A stretch of 35,104 bases of DNA from a virus, in IMG/VR virus record IMGVR_UViG_3300032093_000437, positions 1-35,104 of that record; one strand, 5' to 3'. Made by a program: the position numbers and the translations under genes. Below the pieces are notes generated by a model. It searched no databases. It had not been told where the DNA came from and saw nothing but the letters and a program-made list of their open reading frames with translations. Position 1 is the first letter of the stretch. Each line of letters opens with the position of its first letter. Positions 23,241 through 34,309 of the stretch are shown here, piece by piece.

Positions 23241-23525
23241 ATGGGACTATTAAATAAACTTACAACACAAGGTTCAAGTTTAACACCATATGATGGAGTT
23301 ACTCCAACCCCAAATCCATTATCTACACCACAATCTCAACTTCAAATTTATTCATTAAATGGAACAAATGTAGTTAATGTTAACAGTGCTTATCAACAGT
23401 ATTTAGATGGTACTCAAAACAATTTGCCAACACCGTCATTACTTGACTTAAATGGAAATACTCCGTCTATATCCACAGCTAATCCATCACAAGCTCTACC
23501 ATATATTAACAACCAACCAGGTTAA
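23241..23525 (+). CDS. Small Pro/Asn/Ser-rich tail-region protein (94 aa)
   Basis: Not a named family. 'MGLLNKLTTQGSSLTPYDG' opens it, followed by Pro/Thr/Asn/Gln-rich sequence with no charged core, so probably an extended virion linker. The start resembles that of the 220-aa product at 19071. It has its own late-type element and its stop overlaps the ATG of the next gene by 1 nt (TTAATG), coupling it to the 820-aa baseplate protein. Confidence 0.68.
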   Translation: MGLLNKLTTQGSSLTPYDGVTPTPNPLSTPQSQLQIYSLNGTNVVNVNSAYQQYLDGTQNNLPTPSLLDLNGNTPSISTANPSQALPYINNQPG

Positions 23526-25987
23526 TGCCATTAATAACATCTAATACAGATCTTAAATCTTTGTCTTTTGGCCATGATAGGCCAGGATGGGCTAATAGTG
23601 GCCAACCTTTTTTATACTTTGGTTTTCCAAATTTAAACATAGGTACTATACCATCAAGGACAGGAAACAATCCTTATGTAAATCTGTCAGTAAATAATTT
23701 TGTTTATAAACCTATAAATCCTATCCCAGTTAATTCTCAAGCTATTGGGATGGTAAGAGGTTTTCAAAATGGTATTAATAATGATATAAATTTAATTAAT
23801 ATTGGAAGTAACTTTGTTGTAGAAGGAGTTGAAAATGTAATAGAAGGAGCAGCTAATCTTACTAATAGAATAGGAAATGCTACTGTTAGGGGAGCTATTA
23901 ATGCGCTTAACGGTGTTATAGGTGGTATAAACGCAGCTTCTGATTATATCACAGAAACATTTGACCCTACACTTAGATCAAGTTATCCTGATTTTTTATG
24001 GAGAAAAAATAGATTTAACTTAGGTCATTCTTTTATTGATACTCAAAGAATAACAAAATTCTTTTTCACACCAGCTGGTCTTTTCTTTTTATTAAAACAA
24101 AATTTATTAGAAAGACAAAATGTTAAAGTTGATGGAACAACACGTTTATATAGTCCTTTAAACACTATAGCACAAGTTGGAGTGAATGCTTATGGATATC
24201 ACCTAAACAAATCAGGTTTAAATCCATTTGAAAGAAGTTATTATAAAGGTGGAAATGAAGGATATTTTAATAACACCAAAAAACGTATTGGTTTAGCTGG
24301 AGTCCAAAATTTTGAAGATGATATAGGTAGAGGAGCTAATCGTTTAACATCATTACTATTAAATAAAATTAATCATGTACCAATAGGGTTAGATAAATAT
24401 GGTATAACAAATGTTCTTAACCGTAATGTTCTTCTTAGATATCTTAGTGGTCCTGGATCTACCTTAGGTATTGGGTTCACTGAGATTAGATTACAAAATG
24501 AAACTCGAAAAGTTGAATTAAGGAGAGACAAAACATGGCCTGGTGAAAAGTATAATATTAATAGAGAAAATAAATATGATTATCTAACACCAATAGGAAA
24601 ACCAGATATAGAATGGTATTTAACTGTTGGTGATACTTCTGGGGATTTAGGTACTAGAAGTGTATTTTACAAATGGTATTTACAAAATAAAGGATCTTAT
24701 AATAGTGTAACTGAAGCAGCAAAAGCTTATTATGGTACTACAGAAGAATTAGTAAAAATAGATATAGATTATTTAATCACAAGTAGTCTATACTCTCCAT
24801 CTGGTTCATCTGCTACTATAAAAAGATTAGGAGGAGATTCTACTAAACCAGAATATTATACTCCAACAGGAAGTAGTGTTAATTGGAGTTACACAGCAGG
24901 TAAGGGAGTAAGTAAAAATTATGATACGGCTTTAAAAGCAGCAGCCGCATCACTTAAATATCCTCTTCAAACAGGATCATTTTCTGTTAGTAATAGCCCA
25001 ATAGGAGAATCATCAACTATTAATTCTAATACAAATATTTTTAAAGACAAAGATGATAGTTCTAATAATGAATATACTTTAGATGGTTCTCAAATATCTC
25101 AATATAAATCTTTAGGACAAACACAAAATACAACATTTGGATCTAGTGGTGTAGAAGATTTTAGAAAATATCTTGTAAAAGGATCTATCCCAACAACAGA
25201 TTACACTGATTTTAATCGAGAAACAACATATCAAGCTAGTAAAACTAGTTATAAAGGAAATTGGAGTATAGCAGCTAATAAAAGAGTTTTAGACCCAAAT
25301 ATTCCAATTTCTTCTGATCAAGAAGAACCAAAAAGATATAGTGATATTATAGATTTTAATTTTACTTTACAATATCCTAGTGGTGATAAAAGATTAATTG
25401 ATTTTACTGCTTATTTAGAAGATTGGAGTGATGGGGTTAAAGCTGATTGGAATGCTATTAAATACATGGGTAGAGCTGAAAGCTTTTATAAATATGGTGG
25501 ATTTTCAAGAGAAGGATCAGTATCTTTCTTAGTGCCAGCCTTATCAAGAAGAAACATGATATCTAATTACAGAAAATTAAATGCTTTAGCTTGGTCAGTA
25601 GCCCCTTCTTATTCTGATATAGGTTTAATGAGAGGAATAATAACTAATTTTACAATGGGTGATTATTTTAGAAAAATGCCTATTTTAATTAAAAATGTAG
25701 ATTTCGCTGAAATTGAAGACATGGGCTGGGATATAAATAGAAAAGTAGATGGTACTGTATGGCAAAGAGATGAAATTGGTTTCACAGGTCAATTACCTAA
25801 AGGTATTAAAGTAACATTACAATATATTGTAATCCATGATTATACTCCAAAAGCTGGAGCAGAATTTATAGGATATGACCCTGATACAAACGCTGCTAGT
25901 GGAAGTGTATTTATTCCTTCATTAAACGACCCAGCAACAGGAAGTAAAGCTATTACTAGTGGTAATTATACTCCATTTCTAAAATAA
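23525..25987 (+). CDS. Baseplate protein with tube-like C-terminal domain (gp48/gp54-like)
   Basis: A large structural protein. The N-terminal ~600 residues are Asn/Gly/Tyr-rich and not recognised ('LKSLSFGHDRPGWANSGQPF' at the start). The C-terminal region, about residues 607-790, has the layout of tail-tube-like domains that cap the tube on the baseplate in marine T4-like phages: 'RLIDFTAYLEDWSDGVKADW', 'AIKYMGRAESFYKYGGFSRE', 'LMRGIITNFTMGDYFRKMP' and 'LPKGIKVTLQYIVIHDYTPK'. These phrases parallel cyanophage-type baseplate proteins I recall as gp48/gp54 equivalents, but without a search this is tentative. Function inferred: initiator platform for tube polymerisation. The gene lies directly before a gp53-like wedge gene and 7 nt separate them. 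At 820 residues it is much longer than T4 gp48 or gp54 (~320-360). Confidence 0.68.
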   Translation: MPLITSNTDLKSLSFGHDRPGWANSGQPFLYFGFPNLNIGTIPSRTGNNPYVNLSVNNFVYKPINPIPVNSQAIGMVRGFQNGINNDINLINIGSNFVVEGVENVIEGAANLTNRIGNATVRGAINALNGVIGGINAASDYITETFDPTLRSSYPDFLWRKNRFNLGHSFIDTQRITKFFFTPAGLFFLLKQNLLERQNVKVDGTTRLYSPLNTIAQVGVNAYGYHLNKSGLNPFERSYYKGGNEGYFNNTKKRIGLAGVQNFEDDIGRGANRLTSLLLNKINHVPIGLDKYGITNVLNRNVLLRYLSGPGSTLGIGFTEIRLQNETRKVELRRDKTWPGEKYNINRENKYDYLTPIGKPDIEWYLTVGDTSGDLGTRSVFYKWYLQNKGSYNSVTEAAKAYYGTTEELVKIDIDYLITSSLYSPSGSSATIKRLGGDSTKPEYYTPTGSSVNWSYTAGKGVSKNYDTALKAAAASLKYPLQTGSFSVSNSPIGESSTINSNTNIFKDKDDSSNNEYTLDGSQISQYKSLGQTQNTTFGSSGVEDFRKYLVKGSIPTTDYTDFNRETTYQASKTSYKGNWSIAANKRVLDPNIPISSDQEEPKRYSDIIDFNFTLQYPSGDKRLIDFTAYLEDWSDGVKADWNAIKYMGRAESFYKYGGFSREGSVSFLVPALSRRNMISNYRKLNALAWSVAPSYSDIGLMRGIITNFTMGDYFRKMPILIKNVDFAEIEDMGWDINRKVDGTVWQRDEIGFTGQLPKGIKVTLQYIVIHDYTPKAGAEFIGYDPDTNAASGSVFIPSLNDPATGSKAITSGNYTPFLK

Positions 25988-25994
25988 TCTTAAT

Positions 25995-26297
25995 ATGAAT
26001 CGTTATAGAAATACTAAAATAATAAACCAACCTAATACTAATATAAAATATTATAGGGATACAAAATATCCTAGTATACCTTTATCTATAACAGACATAT
26101 ATGTCATTACAGCTGATGGAGACAGATATGATATATTAGCGCAGCAATATTACAATGATTCTACATTATGGTGGATTATTTCTATAGCTAATGATAATTT
26201 AGTTCAAAATACCCTATACCCTTCAGCTGGCCTTCAAATACGTATACCACGTGATATAAGTGGTATTCTAGCCGCTTATAATTTACTAAATTCATAA
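25995..26297 (+). CDS. 53: Baseplate wedge protein with LysM-like fold, gp53-like
   Basis: Residues ~40-85 fit the LysM/tail-protein-X pattern used by gp53 to clamp baseplate arms: 'DRYDILAQQYYNDSTLWWII' followed by 'SIANDN', then 'YPSAGLQIRIPRDISG'. The first 30 residues are a basic, Asn/Tyr-rich arm. At 100 residues it is about half of T4 gp53 (196), so it represents essentially the LysM-like part. It lies between the tube-cap-like protein and the hub paralogs, in keeping with a baseplate gene cluster; 3 nt separate it from the next ATG. Peptidoglycan binding is possible for a LysM domain but not required here. Confidence 0.8.
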   Translation: MNRYRNTKIINQPNTNIKYYRDTKYPSIPLSITDIYVITADGDRYDILAQQYYNDSTLWWIISIANDNLVQNTLYPSAGLQIRIPRDISGILAAYNLLNS

Positions 26298-26300
26298 GTT

Positions 26301-29300
26301 ATGGCTACAAAGGTTTTAGGGAGTGAATTCAATGATTGGGTTCAAAAACAAATTAATCAAAGACAAAAAACTAACGCTTTAACCACTTCTAAAAGTACTA
26401 ATGATATTTTATATCAAAATGCAAATGACTCATTTATTAGATTAACATCTGCTGTTAACATTAATGATGAACCAACTAACGCTAAAAATTTCCAATTATT
26501 TTCAACTAGATTTGGAGGTGTTGGATCAACTGGAAGTTTTGCTTCTGGAGTAGGAACAGGAACTAACTCAACATACGCTTACGGATTCTTATCAGATGGA
26601 AAATATGGGTTTTCACCTCCACCTGGAATAGTGTCCGCTGATATTAAGGCTTTAAACCAAGGTTCTTTTAAAGAGGCTACAATTGAGATTTTAGCCCATA
26701 ATATGGATCAGTTTGAAATAATTGAAGTATTATATCTTAGAGTCGGATATACAGTTTTACTAGAGTGGGGTCATAACATGTACTTTGATAACACAGGAGC
26801 TTTTATTAGATCTAATCCCCATGAAGTATATACAACTTTTTTAAATGGTGGTAGCTCTCAATTAGATGTTCAAAATAAAATTATAGCAGAACGGTCAGGA
26901 TCTAATGGTAATTATGATGCTATGCATGGAGTAGTTAGAAATTTTAATTGGAACTTAGAAAAAGATGGAAGTTATAAAATATCTGTTAATATAGCCTCAG
27001 TAGGTGATGTTTTTGAATCTTTAAAAAGTAATACATCTCACCCTATTTCTGACGCTACTAAAATTGACGGAACTCAGGAAACTCCAGAAAATCAACCACC
27101 ACTTCAATTTAACGCTCAAAAAACTACAATAAATAAAATATTGTGGTATCTATCTCAAAAACTTCCTGCTTCTAAAGATATGAAAGTAGATGGATCTCAT
27201 AAATTTTATTTACAAGGTGATGAAACAAAAGCTTCTGATATAGCTGCGGGCATAGGTTTAAAAGCTAATCAATATAATGATAGTAAACCTGGGGCTCAAG
27301 GAGATGTAATAGGTTTTATATTTCCCCAATTAAACGGTGTTAATACTGGAGGAGCGGGGCTTAACGCTCAATACTTTATAAAATTAGGAGTACTACTGCG
27401 TTGTTTACAAAATTTTTGTTTACTATACAACCCAGACAAAAATAATGAAGCTTTAATCAATATTAACACAGATGATGAAGAAAGTTTTTGTTTTACTTAC
27501 GCTAGACAAGGTAGTTTAGATCCTAGAGTATGTTTAATAGATATTGATAAAGAATTAAAATTAACCATCAATCCCACTACCGGAGTAGCTACATCACCAC
27601 CTACTTCCTCAGCTAGTAATTATACTATCACTAATACTTACTATGATTATAAATTTTTAAAAATTGAAGACACATATTCTTCAACACCCGCATATGATGA
27701 TCTTTACGACCCAGAACAAGGACCATACATAGACGCTCCTAATGACATAGACAGTTATGCTTTATCTGTACTCCCAACAAGAGGAACTTGGTCAGATGAA
27801 TTTGAAAAATTTTTAAATGATCAATTTCCTGAAGCAGATAGCACAAAAATTGTTAAAAAAACAACAAACCAACCAGGTGGATTTGTTAGTGATTTAAACA
27901 ATATTAAATATTCTAACGCTACAACTGCTTACTTATCTATTCTTGAAGATTATGTTGTAAAAGATGATGATCAAGAATATCAAGATTTCAAAGATAAATT
28001 TATTTATGATCCTAATTTGTCTGGGACATTTGTCACATCCGCTGTGACTGAGGGGCAAAATTATTTAACTGATTATAATTTAGAAATTAATAAAATCATC
28101 AAAGTAATTGATGTGCCTACAAGTGGGGGTGGACCTAGAAAAATAACATTAACTGTGACTACTAAAAGGGCTATAGTATCTACATATGTAAAATCTACTA
28201 CAGGTTATGTAGGAACTAATGTGGAAGCGGAAAATGAAGAAGATATAGATGTATCTAATAATTTATTTGATAGAATAAGACCAGGATCTAAATTCAGAGT
28301 AGACCCAGATAATTATCCATTTATAGGTCGTACTATGAATATTTACATTAATATGAATCATGTGGCTAGTATATTACAAAATAATGTTGATATATCAAGT
28401 GGAGCTATATCAATGTTTACTTTCTTAGATACATTAATGAAAAATGTTCAAAGGGCTTTAGGTAATCTAAATAATTTTTATATCCCATATGATGAAAAAA
28501 CTAATGAATTTTCTATAGTAGATAAAACAGTAATTCCTCAATTAGGATCTTACTTACTAGCTACAAAAGGAAAAAATCCATTTAATATTAATCCTACAGA
28601 ATTTTTAACTAATACTTTAGGAACAAATGGGGGTAGTTTTGTAAGAGAAGCATCATTTAAAACCCAAATATCAAATAACTTTATGTCTCAAATTACTATT
28701 GGCGCCCAAGCAAATGGTAATATTGTAGGTACAAATGCTACATTATTAAGTAAATTAAATGTAGGTTACACAGACAGAATATTTTTTGAGAAAACTACAG
28801 AAAATAATAAATCAAATTCTACTTCAAATGATATATCTACTAATTTCCTTAGTAATGTAGGAATTGTACAAAATTTATATAACGCTATAAATGATGGAAA
28901 CATCTCAGATCAACAGATAGACGGTGCTATAGATGCTGGTGTTGATCTATTTAATTACGAGATAGGAGCATATGTTAATGAAGGTAGTATACCTGGATTA
29001 GGACTATTACCTATTAATTTAGAAATGACATTAGATGGATTAAGCGGAATGAATATAGGTGAAGCATACACAGCTGACACAAAACTTTTACCATCTTTAT
29101 ATAGAAATACAACTCAATTTATTATTACAGGTGTATCTCATAAAATACAAAATAATGATTGGACAACTACAGTTCAAAGCATATCAGGCCCAAAATATGA
29201 TGGAGTAACTGTAAAGTTACCTCCTAAACCTAAAACAGCTACTATTACTATTATTAAAGATCCAAGATGGAAACCATCAGCTCCTCCATCAGGAGCACCA

Positions 29301-29945
29301 ACTACCCCAGTAACACCAGGATCTTATCCTGGAGACTCTAGATATGATCCTTTAAAGACTATTATATTTAAAGGTGAAAGTACTAGTTATGATTCTTTAT
29401 TCCCTAGTACCACTTATACCGCTGTATATAAAGTATCTGCTACAACAAGAACTATTCAACAAATTATTGATGAAGGGGAACAACGTGTAGCAGCTGGGTA
29501 TAGCAGTACAGCTGTAGGAAGATACCAACAAATAACAAGATATATAAGTAATAGAGCAACAACAGTTGGCTTATCACTTACTGATCTTTTTAATGAACTT
29601 AACCAAAATAAAATGGGTGAATCTATAATAGATACAAAAGATGGTGGTGGGATTGGAGACTACATTAAAGGAAAAAATGAAGGTAATCAAACTCAATTAG
29701 AAGAAGCTATTGATATACTTGGAAGAGGATGGACATCTAAACCTATGATTAATAAAGGTGGAAGTAAAGTAGGAAATGTAGTTGACGGAACTGGGACAGT
29801 TGGTAACACATCCCCAGGTCCTGTAGCAGTAAATGTTGGCCAAGTAGTAAAGGCTCTTATAGAAACCCGAAAAAACTTTGTGAATAGCAGTATAACAGGT
29901 ATTGGTGGAAAACCAGTATTTATTCCAAGTTATATTACATATTAA
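26301..29945 (+). CDS. Giant baseplate hub/spike paralog A with lambda-R-like lytic domain (1214 aa)
   Basis: The body (residues ~1-425 and ~630-990) is shared with the next gene: 'STYAYGFLSDGKYGFSPPPG', 'LLEWGHNMYFDNTGAF', 'FIFPQLNGVNTGG', 'NYPFIGRTMNIYINMN', 'QIDGAIDAGVDLFNYEIG'. A variable insert occupies ~427-630. After a Pro-rich hinge (~990-1010) a separate domain follows. It has 'FKGEST' with Glu1026 and 'YSSTAVGRYQQITRYI' with G1073-R-Y-Q1076. The Glu to GRYQ distance (47) is close to that of lambda endolysin R (46, E19 to G65), so I call it a GH104-like lytic transglycosylase domain with Glu1026 as catalytic acid. A domain that locally opens the cell wall on a baseplate spike parallels the lysozyme in T4 gp5. 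The N-terminal body is not a family I can name; hub/spike is inferred from position and from the lytic domain. Confidence 0.72.
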   Translation: MATKVLGSEFNDWVQKQINQRQKTNALTTSKSTNDILYQNANDSFIRLTSAVNINDEPTNAKNFQLFSTRFGGVGSTGSFASGVGTGTNSTYAYGFLSDGKYGFSPPPGIVSADIKALNQGSFKEATIEILAHNMDQFEIIEVLYLRVGYTVLLEWGHNMYFDNTGAFIRSNPHEVYTTFLNGGSSQLDVQNKIIAERSGSNGNYDAMHGVVRNFNWNLEKDGSYKISVNIASVGDVFESLKSNTSHPISDATKIDGTQETPENQPPLQFNAQKTTINKILWYLSQKLPASKDMKVDGSHKFYLQGDETKASDIAAGIGLKANQYNDSKPGAQGDVIGFIFPQLNGVNTGGAGLNAQYFIKLGVLLRCLQNFCLLYNPDKNNEALININTDDEESFCFTYARQGSLDPRVCLIDIDKELKLTINPTTGVATSPPTSSASNYTITNTYYDYKFLKIEDTYSSTPAYDDLYDPEQGPYIDAPNDIDSYALSVLPTRGTWSDEFEKFLNDQFPEADSTKIVKKTTNQPGGFVSDLNNIKYSNATTAYLSILEDYVVKDDDQEYQDFKDKFIYDPNLSGTFVTSAVTEGQNYLTDYNLEINKIIKVIDVPTSGGGPRKITLTVTTKRAIVSTYVKSTTGYVGTNVEAENEEDIDVSNNLFDRIRPGSKFRVDPDNYPFIGRTMNIYINMNHVASILQNNVDISSGAISMFTFLDTLMKNVQRALGNLNNFYIPYDEKTNEFSIVDKTVIPQLGSYLLATKGKNPFNINPTEFLTNTLGTNGGSFVREASFKTQISNNFMSQITIGAQANGNIVGTNATLLSKLNVGYTDRIFFEKTTENNKSNSTSNDISTNFLSNVGIVQNLYNAINDGNISDQQIDGAIDAGVDLFNYEIGAYVNEGSIPGLGLLPINLEMTLDGLSGMNIGEAYTADTKLLPSLYRNTTQFIITGVSHKIQNNDWTTTVQSISGPKYDGVTVKLPPKPKTATITIIKDPRWKPSAPPSGAPTTPVTPGSYPGDSRYDPLKTIIFKGESTSYDSLFPSTTYTAVYKVSATTRTIQQIIDEGEQRVAAGYSSTAVGRYQQITRYISNRATTVGLSLTDLFNELNQNKMGESIIDTKDGGGIGDYIKGKNEGNQTQLEEAIDILGRGWTSKPMINKGGSKVGNVVDGTGTVGNTSPGPVAVNVGQVVKALIETRKNFVNSSITGIGGKPVFIPSYITY

Positions 29946-29954
29946 TAAAATAAT

Positions 29955-29970
29955 ATATTTATAACAAATA
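29955..29970 (+). promoter_or_regulatory. Late-type element upstream of hub paralog B
   Basis: ATATTTATAACAAATA; the core at 29956-29963 ends 17 nt before the ATG at 29981. Paralog A has no such element before its start, so the two copies are transcribed from different signals. Confidence 0.65.
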
Positions 29971-29980
29971 GTACTAAATA

Positions 29981-32900
29981 ATGGCTAGAAGCATAATAGG
30001 AGCAGGTTTTGATGAATATGTTAAAAATCAAATTGACCGTAGACAAAAGAATAATGCTATAACTACTTCTAAAAGTAATGATATAATTCTATACCAAAAC
30101 ACTAATGATGCTTTTTTACGATTAACATCAGGTGTTGATGTTAATGATACAAACACTGATGCTTTTAATTATCAATTATTTTCAACTAGATTTGGAGGAC
30201 TTGGTTCATCAGGAAACTTTGCTACTGGTGTTGGATTAGGAGCTAATTCAACATACGCATATGGATTTCTTTCAGATGGAACATATGGATACTCACCACC
30301 CCCAGGTCTAATATCAGCTGATATTAAAGCTTTAAATAAAGGTTCCCTTAGAGAGGCTACAGTTCAAATGGTAGCCCACAACTCAGCCCAATTTGAAATT
30401 ATTGAAAGACTATACCTTAGATTAGGTTATTCTATGTTATTAGAATGGGGTCATAATATGTACTTTGACAATACTGGTGCTTTTAATAGATCTAATCCTC
30501 ATGAAGTATGCAGTACATTTATAAAAACTAACTCTTATGATACTATTTTAAAAAAAATTAGAGAACAAAGAGCATCATCTGATGGTAATTATGATGCTAT
30601 GGTAGGTTTAGTAAAAAATTTTTCATGGGATTTAAAAAGAGATGGTAGTTATGATATAAGATTAGATATAATTGCCACTGGAGATATAATAGAATCTTTA
30701 AAAAGCAATACATCTCACCCTGTAAAAAATCCTTCTACAACAGAAACACCTGAAGACCAACCACCACTTCAATTTAACGCTCAAAAAACTACAATAAATA
30801 AAATACTATGGGAGTTATCTCAAAAGATACCTGTAGTAGATATGAAAACAGATGGCTCACATAAATTTTATTTAAATGGCCCAGAAACAACCGCAGCTAT
30901 AATTTCAAGTATAACTGGATTAACAGCTAACCAAGACAATAATAGTGAGTCATGGGCAGAAGGAGATGTAGTAGGTTTTATATTCCCTCAATTAAATGGA
31001 GTCAACACAGGAGGACCTGGACTTAATGCTCAGTATTTTGTAAAATTAGGTGTATTTCTAAGATGTTTGCAAAACTTTTGTTTACTATACAATCCAACTC
31101 AAGGTAATGAATCTATTTTTAAATTTAATTGGAATGAAAATGAAAATTTTTGCTTCACATATGCTAGACATGGTAGTTTAGATCCTAGAGTATGTTTAAT
31201 AGATATTGATAAAGATCTAAAACTAAATGTTAATCCTGTTACTGGTGTTGCAACCACTCCACCCCCTACTACAACTGTTAATTATAACATAAATGAAAGA
31301 AGATATGAGTATAAAGAAATAAGAATATATAAATATAATTCTTCTAATAAGAATTATGATGAATTATATAAAAATGTTCTTGATTTTAGTAAAGGAGTAT
31401 ATACTGATCCTAAGGAATACCAAGACTTAGACAGTTACGTTGATATAAATTTGCTTTCATCAATCCCATCATATAAAACACAACTAGAAAAAAGTTTTAA
31501 TGAAAAATTTGCTATACCTTTTTTAGAACCAGATGAAAATAAACCAGCTATAACAATAACTAACCCAACATCTTTAACTACCACAGCTACAGATTTAAAT
31601 AATGTTACAATTTACACTTACTCAGATAAAGATCTTCCATATTTACAACAATGGACTGGCCAAACTAATAAAGGGCAAAAAGTAACAGTACCTTTTGTTG
31701 ATCGAACATTAAATAATTACATAGATGGAGGATCTCACCCTGAATTATACTCAGCTAGAAATACTATAACCGCACAAGAAAATACAGAATATATTGTTAA
31801 GGCTGGTGAATTTGTAGGAAGTAAAGCTGTAGATGGAGGAGGTAATGAAGTTGATTTTAATCAAATAAAACAAAATTTAGCAGCTGGAACAGCTACAACA
31901 ACTTCTAATGTAGTGTTTGTTTTAGACACATATGCTATTGTAACTCATGAATATATTAAAGTATCTACAGGTTATACAGGAACTAATGTTGGAGTAACAG
32001 AAGATATAGATGTATCAAATCAATTATTTGATAGAATAAGAAATGGCTCTAGATTTAGAGCTGATTCAAGTAATTATCCATTTATAGGTCGTACTATGAA
32101 CATCTATATTAATATGAACTATATAGCTAAAATACTTCAAGATTATGTTGATGTAGGTTCTGGGGCTATAGCTATGTATGATCTTTTAGATAAATTAATG
32201 AAGGGAGTACAAAATGCTTTAGGAAATATTAATAATTTTAACATTACTTACGATGAGAACACTAACGAATTTTCTATAGCAGATAGTACATTCATACCTA
32301 ATTTACCTAAATACTTAGACACTCTAAAAGCATCAGGAATAATATCTGCTAATCCTTTTGATAATAAGTCTGTTGAATTTATAACTCATACTTTAACTCC
32401 TACTGAAGGTAGTTTTATGAGAGATGCTTCTGTGAAAACTAAATTATCTAACAATTTCCAAACAATGGTAACTGTTGGAGCTCAAGTTAATAAAAATGTT
32501 GTTGGATCTAACTCAACAGGTCTAACACGTTGGAATGCGGGTTTAACAGATAGAATTATAAATAAAAAAACATCAGAAAACAATAAAGATGGAACAAAAC
32601 CTGATGAAATATCTACTAATTTTCTTAGTAATGTAGGTATAGTGCAGAACTTATATAACGCTATAAATGATGGTAACATATCAGACCAACAGATTGATGG
32701 AGCTAAAGACGCAGGAATTGATTTATTTAATTATGAAATAGGAACTTATGTTAATGAAGGAATCATTCCTGGTGTAGGATTTATACCTATTGATTTAGAA
32801 TTAACTATGGAAGGATTAAGTGGAATGAAATTATATGAGTCATATACCGCTGACACAAAATTACTCCCTCCTAGATATAAAGATGCTATCCAGTTTATAA

Positions 32901-33763
32901 TAACAGGTATATCCCATAAAATACAAAATAATGACTGGACAACTACAATTCAGAGTATATCTGGGCCTAGATCTGATGCTGGAGCTGTAGGGACCCCACC
33001 AAAAATCAAAACAGCCACTATTAATGTTATTAAAGATCCAAAATGGAAACCATCTACACCTTCATTAAATAGTAATATTAATTCAGGAGGAACTGGAGGA
33101 ACACCTGGGGTGACTAGAATTAGAGTTGTTAGATCATATGCTGATCAAAACCAAGTTGTATCTAGATTAGTATTAATTAATGTAGACCCAACAACTAAAG
33201 CTGAAGTTGTAGTTGATGATAGCTCATTTTGGATATTAGAAAATCCATGGCTTAATAACCAACAGGCAACTATGGCTCTACAAAGTAGTTGTGTACCATT
33301 AGGATATTATAATGCCACAATTGAACCAGTTAATAAAAGAGGAAGAATAATTAAAGTAAATGGTTTTAGTGATGGAAAGGGTGGTGATACAAGCATCACA
33401 GCTAATGGAGTAACAAGAACAGGTATACTATGGCACCCAGGAGGAAACACAATATGGGTAGGTAAAGACCCAGATGTTAATAGATGGACTACAGGATGTT
33501 TACTATTTGCTACAAAAGATATCATTAATAATAAAGATTCTAATGGCTATTTTAAACAAACCGCAGAGACAGGTTATGGTGACATGGGTGGGAAGGTTTC
33601 AAACACAGCAAGAGAAAATTTCTTTACATTTTTAGCTAGTAAAATGAATTTAAAAGATAATGATGAATTTGATTTTGAAATAGTAGTAGCGGGAACAGGA
33701 ACAGCAGCTAATTATCCTAAATTAAATATCCACGACCCAGTTAATAATAAGTATTTTGGTTAA
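29981..33763 (+). CDS. Giant baseplate hub/spike paralog B with DUF5675/L,D-transpeptidase-like domain (1260 aa)
   Basis: Collinear with paralog A over ~1020 residues (shared blocks listed there), with its own variable insert at ~420-663. After the common 'KDPKWKPSTP' hinge (nt ~33060) the C-terminal ~235 residues are unrelated to A. They read 'SFWILENPWL', 'SSCVPLGYYNATIEPVNKRG', 'ILWHPGGNTIWVGKDP' and 'WTTGCLLFA', with His1152, Asn1156 and Cys1173. The 'E(D/N)P...C.P.G.Y......ILWH.GN....T.GC' pattern is that of DUF5675, with the His/Cys layout also seen in YkuD L,D-transpeptidases. A peptidoglycan-directed activity is therefore plausible but unproven. There is no signal peptide. It may be an alternative spike subunit, or form a mixed hub with A. 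Confidence 0.72.
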   Translation: MARSIIGAGFDEYVKNQIDRRQKNNAITTSKSNDIILYQNTNDAFLRLTSGVDVNDTNTDAFNYQLFSTRFGGLGSSGNFATGVGLGANSTYAYGFLSDGTYGYSPPPGLISADIKALNKGSLREATVQMVAHNSAQFEIIERLYLRLGYSMLLEWGHNMYFDNTGAFNRSNPHEVCSTFIKTNSYDTILKKIREQRASSDGNYDAMVGLVKNFSWDLKRDGSYDIRLDIIATGDIIESLKSNTSHPVKNPSTTETPEDQPPLQFNAQKTTINKILWELSQKIPVVDMKTDGSHKFYLNGPETTAAIISSITGLTANQDNNSESWAEGDVVGFIFPQLNGVNTGGPGLNAQYFVKLGVFLRCLQNFCLLYNPTQGNESIFKFNWNENENFCFTYARHGSLDPRVCLIDIDKDLKLNVNPVTGVATTPPPTTTVNYNINERRYEYKEIRIYKYNSSNKNYDELYKNVLDFSKGVYTDPKEYQDLDSYVDINLLSSIPSYKTQLEKSFNEKFAIPFLEPDENKPAITITNPTSLTTTATDLNNVTIYTYSDKDLPYLQQWTGQTNKGQKVTVPFVDRTLNNYIDGGSHPELYSARNTITAQENTEYIVKAGEFVGSKAVDGGGNEVDFNQIKQNLAAGTATTTSNVVFVLDTYAIVTHEYIKVSTGYTGTNVGVTEDIDVSNQLFDRIRNGSRFRADSSNYPFIGRTMNIYINMNYIAKILQDYVDVGSGAIAMYDLLDKLMKGVQNALGNINNFNITYDENTNEFSIADSTFIPNLPKYLDTLKASGIISANPFDNKSVEFITHTLTPTEGSFMRDASVKTKLSNNFQTMVTVGAQVNKNVVGSNSTGLTRWNAGLTDRIINKKTSENNKDGTKPDEISTNFLSNVGIVQNLYNAINDGNISDQQIDGAKDAGIDLFNYEIGTYVNEGIIPGVGFIPIDLELTMEGLSGMKLYESYTADTKLLPPRYKDAIQFIITGISHKIQNNDWTTTIQSISGPRSDAGAVGTPPKIKTATINVIKDPKWKPSTPSLNSNINSGGTGGTPGVTRIRVVRSYADQNQVVSRLVLINVDPTTKAEVVVDDSSFWILENPWLNNQQATMALQSSCVPLGYYNATIEPVNKRGRIIKVNGFSDGKGGDTSITANGVTRTGILWHPGGNTIWVGKDPDVNRWTTGCLLFATKDIINNKDSNGYFKQTAETGYGDMGGKVSNTARENFFTFLASKMNLKDNDEFDFEIVVAGTGTAANYPKLNIHDPVNNKYFG

Positions 33764-33775
33764 TATTTAGATAAG

Positions 33776-34309
33776 ATGTATATACCTAAAAATAAAATAA
33801 AGACAAATTTAATAGCGGGTCCAAATCAATTAGTTGACATTAATGGAAATGGATATGTAGGTAGTTACTATAAATTATCTACAGGAAGGATCCAATCAGG
33901 AAAATTCCCAGGTGATGGTAAAAATATAGATTTATTTGAAGTAGGATCATTAACTCCCCCAGAATTAAAAGCCCCTGCGTTACCAACACCATCAAATACA
34001 ACAAATATTTTACCTTTACATCCTACTCCTAAAGATTATGAATATGGGTCATTTATAAGATATTTTTCTAAGAAAAGAAATGAATATTTGTTTAAAGAAA
34101 TATCTCAAACTGAGTATAATACTTTAAATGAAAATGCTACTAGATTATTTGATTTATATAAACCATTTTATATTAAATGGATGTTAACAGGAAATGTTAC
34201 AACAGTAAGTGATTTTAATCGTTATTCTATACTAAGTACTGAAGAAAAAGAAAAAGTATATGGATTAAATGAGTTTTTAAAAATGAATTACACCCAATAT
34301 TACAAATAA
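33776..34309 (+). CDS. Unknown virion-region protein (177 aa)
   Basis: Unrecognised function. The N-terminal segment 'NGYVGSYYKLSTGRIQSGKF' ('G.Y...STG....GK.P.DG') has the look of a short beta domain present in baseplate or fibre-linker genes of environmental phages. Residues 65-85 are Pro-rich. The C-terminal half is helical and basic/aromatic ('YIKWMLTGNVTTVSDFNRYS'). It starts 12 nt after the hub gene and its stop overlaps the next ATG by 1 nt (AATAATG), indicating coupling. Only a degenerate late-type sequence, 4 nt from the ATG, precedes it, so it probably depends on the hub-B transcript. Confidence 0.7.
   Translation: MYIPKNKIKTNLIAGPNQLVDINGNGYVGSYYKLSTGRIQSGKFPGDGKNIDLFEVGSLTPPELKAPALPTPSNTTNILPLHPTPKDYEYGSFIRYFSKKRNEYLFKEISQTEYNTLNENATRLFDLYKPFYIKWMLTGNVTTVSDFNRYSILSTEEKEKVYGLNEFLKMNYTQYYK

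Follow-up and report, generated by a model that had tools for sequence, protein, structure and literature searches.

A virus record of 35,104 bases, analysed here at its full length and referred to as the window, carries two adjacent genes, A and B, whose products share a body with the predicted fold of a gp27/VgrG-type tail hub and then end in different domains resembling cell wall enzymes. We interpret A and B – with a probability of roughly 60% – as baseplate hub proteins that derive from one duplication, have an exchangeable enzyme slot filled by different wall-enzyme-like tails, and have both been maintained. Hubs of the gp27 type close the tail tube and are driven at the cell envelope upon sheath contraction, and hub-borne hydrolases assist in opening the wall. 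The twin-hub finding is well supported as anatomy.

Paired hub genes in a T4-like structural cluster

The window is the whole virus record and carries a T4-like structural cluster, including portal, protease, capsid, PhoH, sheath, tube, and baseplate genes. Comparison with named phages places the capsid and sheath closest to those of Flavobacterium phage immuto (55%), with a Microcystis phage next (47-48%), which makes a Bacteroidota host likely; the virus, a T4-like myovirus, infects aquatic bacteria. Genes A and B sit within the baseplate cluster, with sheath, tube, hub- and wedge-type genes just 5′. Directly 5′ of A is a baseplate wedge-type gene of 100 aa (25995..26297, + strand; gp53/LysM-like, PHROG 7145, 3.6e-10), and a similar-sized gene precedes the hub in single-hub relatives. 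Directly 3′ of B is a conserved gene of 177 aa (33776..34309, + strand) with 54-66% identity in four relatives, three of which are single-hub phages. An 820-aa gene 5′ of the wedge-type gene (23525-25987) is changing fast, with a dN/dS of 0.64 relative to locus L002, a close relative of the window, and 0.09 for a gene that neighbours it; from position only, its product is possibly a tube-initiator-type protein.

The initial annotation, made from the sequence alone, described adjacent genes of 1214 and 1260 aa, and open reading frames of these lengths are present at 26301..29945 (A) and 29981..33763 (B), both on the + strand, as are all domains and residues given below, and separated by 35 bases from the A stop to the B start. 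The claim that about 1000 residues are shared also holds: BLASTP aligns A1-995 with B1-1027 at 589/1041 identical positions (57%, E=0) and finds no significant similarity between the two proteins past this region. The switch occurs at the proposed hinge, KDP.WKPS, which occurs once in each protein, as KDPRWKPS at residues 986-993 of A (29256..29279) and as KDPKWKPS at residues 1018-1025 of B (33032..33055). That the pair arose through misassembly is improbable, because it recurs in four other loci: in L001, a separate record, each hub is 100% identical to its counterpart in the window, the corresponding values for L002 and L003 are about 91% for the A body and 85% for the B body, and L004, a more distant phage, has twin hubs with bodies 54% and 56% identical.

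Searching solved structures by sequence for a relative of either hub returned chance-level rows only, and the identity of the body was addressed through a model of A1-1200 built on a 44-row alignment (pLDDT 65, pTM 0.57). The best Foldseek match to this model is the T5 tail tip (4.6e-5). In a second comparison, with VIA-align run on Foldseek's list, rows 1-49 among the 50 listed come from phage tails, baseplates, injection systems, or VgrG proteins; the hub of cyanophage A-1(L) ranks first (Z 12.7), and T4 gp27 is also present (Z 11.0-11.2). The body contains a variable insert at residues ~450-640, across whose windows A and B are 11-42% identical, and confidence is low in the stretch past the barrels. 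By predicted fold, the bodies of A (residues 1-985, 26301..29255) and B (residues 1-1017, 29981..33031) are thus gp27/VgrG-type tail hubs, with B, which has no model of its own, assigned through its 57% identity to A. The structural comparison therefore gave hub-type chains and not the non-hub family that would have counted against the annotation, and we think it likely that A and B are both hub subunits of the virion. The modest confidence of the models (pLDDT 65 for the body and 63 for the B tail) counts against our interpretation. The nearest named relative of the body is the hub of Flavobacterium phage immuto (immuto35A_237, annotated as a carboxypeptidase), 28-32% identical in pieces and with a VanY tail (1.9e-11); it is the single hub in a 160-kb record, whereas the window has two.

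Unlike C-terminal domains in A and B

The residues singled out in the annotation – Glu1026 and GRYQ 1073-1076 in A, and His1152 and Cys1173 in B – are all at the positions given. In A, residues 1026-1155 (29376..29765) form a putative lambda-R-like lysozyme domain, as had been proposed. The tail matches the PHROG 90 endolysin family (4e-11), and a ten-row profile of A tails reaches lambda lysozyme (3d3d and 1am7, E 0.001) and equally a 66 kDa protein (11mn, 0.001); Pfam gave no credible match to the A tail (best 0.054, Maf). Glu1026 (29376-29378), which we take to be the equivalent of the catalytic Glu of lambda lysozyme, and GRYQ (29517-29528) are invariant in 10/10 A-tail rows, and the matches to solved chains stop short of Glu1026. 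The strongest profile match (5.9e-7) is to residues 149-243 of the A-1(L) hub, which fall inside the lysozyme domain delimited by its authors (PMC10966104). In the part of that paper drawn on here, the lysozyme domain resembling the A tail is absent from the domains reported as active, which weakens our main explanation.

The B tail was proposed to be a DUF5675/L,D-transpeptidase-like domain, and this is supported by a Pfam match below the cut-off, a tentatively assigned predicted fold, and two conserved residues. Pfam DUF5675 covers residues 1049-1179 (33125..33517) with an E-value of 0.0016 and 18.7 bits, and we call the domain DUF5675-like because this score is under the curated cut-off of 26.7. 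The B tail of L004 scores higher (3.5e-5, 24.1 bits), also below the cut-off, which is passed by three lone-hub tails (L029, L053, and L071). Weak matches to Tlde1 in Pfam are present in the B tail of L004 (0.043) and in L053 (0.0054), NCBIfam matched none of eight sequences, and searching solved structures with a profile of the DUF5675 tails gave nothing beyond one row at 0.21. With a B-tail model (pLDDT 63), Foldseek lists nothing under 0.001, and its first two rows are Tlde1a (0.029 and 0.047). The top 13 VIA-align entries are of the L,D-transpeptidase type at Z 5.5-7.7 (values under 8 being weak if taken alone), followed by a next row at 2.6, and identity to these structures is 10-16% over the aligned parts; Bd1075, Csd6, Pgp2, and DpaA, which are among the 13, are to our understanding L,D-transpeptidase-type enzymes. 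His1152 (33434-33436) and Cys1173 (33497-33499) are invariant in 8/8 rows and presumably correspond to the catalytic pair of the L,D-transpeptidase family. We therefore describe the B tail as DUF5675-like, its predicted fold resembling that of L,D-transpeptidases; the outcome that would have refuted the annotation, two tails of one fold lacking catalytic residues, did not arise. The likeness of the B tail to enzymes such as Tlde1a and LdtMt2 lies in predicted fold; these are cellular enzymes or secreted effectors, whereas the domain of B sits on a hub.

From these assignments, the A tail would cut glycan and the B tail would act on the stem peptide. Alternatively, the B tail could modify the wall as a transpeptidase, or bind it, and so serve in anchoring or post-entry repair instead of hydrolysis. 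Cross-linking enzymes do belong to the L,D-transpeptidase fold, and Tlde1a, in the portion of the literature drawn on here, performs both cleavage and exchange; but DUF5675 is the sole tail of the single hubs L029, L053, and L071, in a slot that holds hydrolase families in other relatives, and together with the invariance of His and Cys this makes a non-hydrolytic role unlikely. The division of glycan and peptide activities over two hubs is proposed for the window type only, because the A tail of L004 is a different domain without a credible match.

Tail exchange and the origin of the tandem

A profile scan of viral contigs found at least 549 relatives, and because the best 80 of these were analysed, the census describes near kin. 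From 91 hub open reading frames, removal of 6 truncated and 11 duplicate sequences left 74 tails, and 72 after two short ones were set aside. At E<=0.01, Pfam finds among the 72 distinct tails M23 (7), phage tail lysozyme (6), VanY (6), DUF5675 (6), M15_4 (5), Amidase_2 (4), CHAP (2), DUF5715 (1), and Tlde1 (1); there are tails that hit two families, and many that hit none.

The initial annotation had suggested surveying relatives for other C-terminal swaps, and these prove to be frequent. Scoring tail similarity by blastp (E<=0.01, first 60 residues excluded), we find no tail similarity in 38/59 pairs whose bodies share 50% identity or more – seven of the 38 being A-versus-B pairs within the tandem clade – and in 8/18 pairs whose bodies share 70% or more, the pairs not being independent of one another. 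Loci L061 and L078 have bodies that are 92% identical and tails without similarity, and dissimilar tails are likewise joined to bodies 80% identical in L030 (M23, just under the cut-off) and L032 (VanY), and 75% identical in L026 (no credible family) and L029 (DUF5675). The opposite case is illustrated by L061 and L096, which have a tail in common (70%) and bodies with 50% identity. In the comparison of the window with L002, dS is 0.12 in the A tail and 0.33 in the A body, the pattern expected of a recently shared module. These comparisons indicate that the hub C-terminus is an exchangeable slot among relatives, in which swaps are frequent.

Several tails in the census merit mention in their own right. 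The A tail of L004 (L004:12001-12549) and the tails of L006, L010, L039, L074, and L076 form a family in which Trp, Glu, and Asn residues are invariant and which is a candidate new wall hydrolase; searches against solved structures and Pfam gave at best myohemerythrin (0.26-0.3) and Glucosaminidase (0.026), and a relation to the A tail of the window was looked for and not found. A hub tail of 526 aa (L083:12590-14167) has M15_4 at its end and space for a further domain before it; a pair of enzymes may thus be combined in one hub. Another (L028:12854-13564) has no Pfam match and on visual inspection resembles an SGNH hydrolase, so that the slot may here contain an esterase.

The tandem itself was seen in one small clade only. 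After exclusion of 16 loci (window pieces, duplicates, and P-TIM40) from a set of 103, two body copies are present in 4/87 loci (L001-L004) and one in the other 83, a predominance of single hubs that counts against our interpretation; since L001 has the same hubs as the window and L002 and L003 are near-identical, these represent three phage types. Several rows of alignments A6 and A7 are also near-identical. Flanking sequence of at least 1 kb is available on either side of the hub in 67 of the 83 single-hub loci, and of 3 kb in 39, so some could hide a second copy. In 14 whole records – where several rows in one record belong to a single open reading frame – two hub frames were found in L003 and L004 and one in each of the other 12, with no second hub elsewhere in the single-hub phages (11 virus records and immuto). 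A cellular source was looked for and not found, the genome scan giving one MAG contig.

Cyanophage P-TIM40 was considered as a second case of twin hubs and rejected, because by sequence and place we interpret gp020 and gp021 (L020:9862-16826) as adjacent, paralogous tape-measure-like proteins. The lysozyme domain of gp020 alone matches A, being lambda-R-like and 36% identical to the A tail, and here the tail enzyme is seen on another carrier, a tape-measure-like protein.

In the body tree A groups with B inside the window lineage, which taken alone would allow two independent duplications. The body sites, however, are mixed, with 35 supporting within-genome, 30 orthologous, and 10 cross groupings, and the classes are clustered in blocks (19 runs versus 33.3 expected, p=0.0001). 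Together with the B tail shared with L004 (70%) and the gene order, these clustered sites fit a single tandem duplication followed by patchy gene conversion between A and B. Between the window and L002, dN/dS is 0.13 (A) and 0.23 (B) for the bodies and 0.28-0.29 (A) and 0.35-0.37 (B) for the tails, and with values of 0.13-0.37 throughout we conclude that both copies are maintained by purifying selection. It is conceivable that the second hub arose recently as a side effect of tail swapping and lacks a lasting separate role, as the restriction of the tandem to 4/87 loci might suggest; but the tandem is present in phages whose bodies are only about 55% identical, with the B tail retained between them, and purifying selection acts on A and B, making this explanation very improbable.

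Hub assembly and relation to known systems

Because the bodies of A and B should both fit one threefold socket, either mixed trimers or two kinds of virions could form; if both proteins are hub subunits in virions, the balance tips slightly towards mixed trimers over two pure kinds of particle. We tentatively propose a fuller version of our interpretation, which is possible but less than even in probability: the tip would be combinatorial, mixed A/B trimers would equip every virion with an enzyme for cutting glycan and another for cutting peptide, gene conversion would preserve compatibility between the bodies, and the unrelated tails would escape conversion and be traded freely between phages. 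A competing and somewhat doubtful scheme is that A and B form homotrimers, one kind per virion, such that a burst contains two particle kinds suited to different walls. The fast change of tails on near-constant bodies is what one would predict for an enzyme that has to suit the wall of its host, and most relatives manage with a single hub; however, the two genes lie 35 bases apart in one orientation, an arrangement that gives no hint of a switch, and their bodies are still similar enough at 57% identity for mixed trimers to be possible.

VgrG proteins of type VI secretion systems correspond to a fusion of gp27 and gp5. Specialised (evolved) VgrGs are likewise hub-type proteins with exchangeable C-terminal effector domains, although they belong to a secretion system whose effectors hit rival cells. 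Both homotrimers and heterotrimers of specialised VgrGs are depicted in the part of a review drawn on here (PMC10433429), so that mixed hub trimers have a parallel in a related machine.

Hubs with wall enzymes fused on one chain are already known. The A-1(L) hub gp15 (PDB 8KEA) resembles our proteins in hub fold, in its lysozyme domain, and in bearing several wall enzymes, but its lysozyme, endoglucanase, and peptidase domains are on one chain (PMC10966104), whereas here two paralogous chains have one tail each. Similarly, gp147 of Bacillus phage 0305phi8-36 is a gp27-type hub fused to transglycosylase, NLP, and M23 domains, and its relative BtI1 has revised domains flanking the hub; this is a single hub gene, and a tandem hub paralog is not described in the section concerned (PMC2147016). 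We found no precedent in the open-licence literature, as far as it was accessible in part, for two paralogous tandem hubs each with its own enzyme, and the division of glycan-type and peptide-type domains over two paralogous hubs looks to be new.

These phages provide a natural series in which a nearly constant hub body, at up to 92% identity without tail similarity, is joined to different wall enzymes, and through which one can ask which peptidoglycan bond a phage has to break, whether breaking one suffices, and how new enzymes come to be accepted by hubs. DUF5675, a family of unknown function, gains a testable role. If A and B occupy one virion, the threefold tip need not consist of identical chains, and if the combinatorial tip is correct, it would represent, in phages, the equivalent of mixed trimers of specialised VgrGs, and DUF5675 would be a virion L,D-peptidase.
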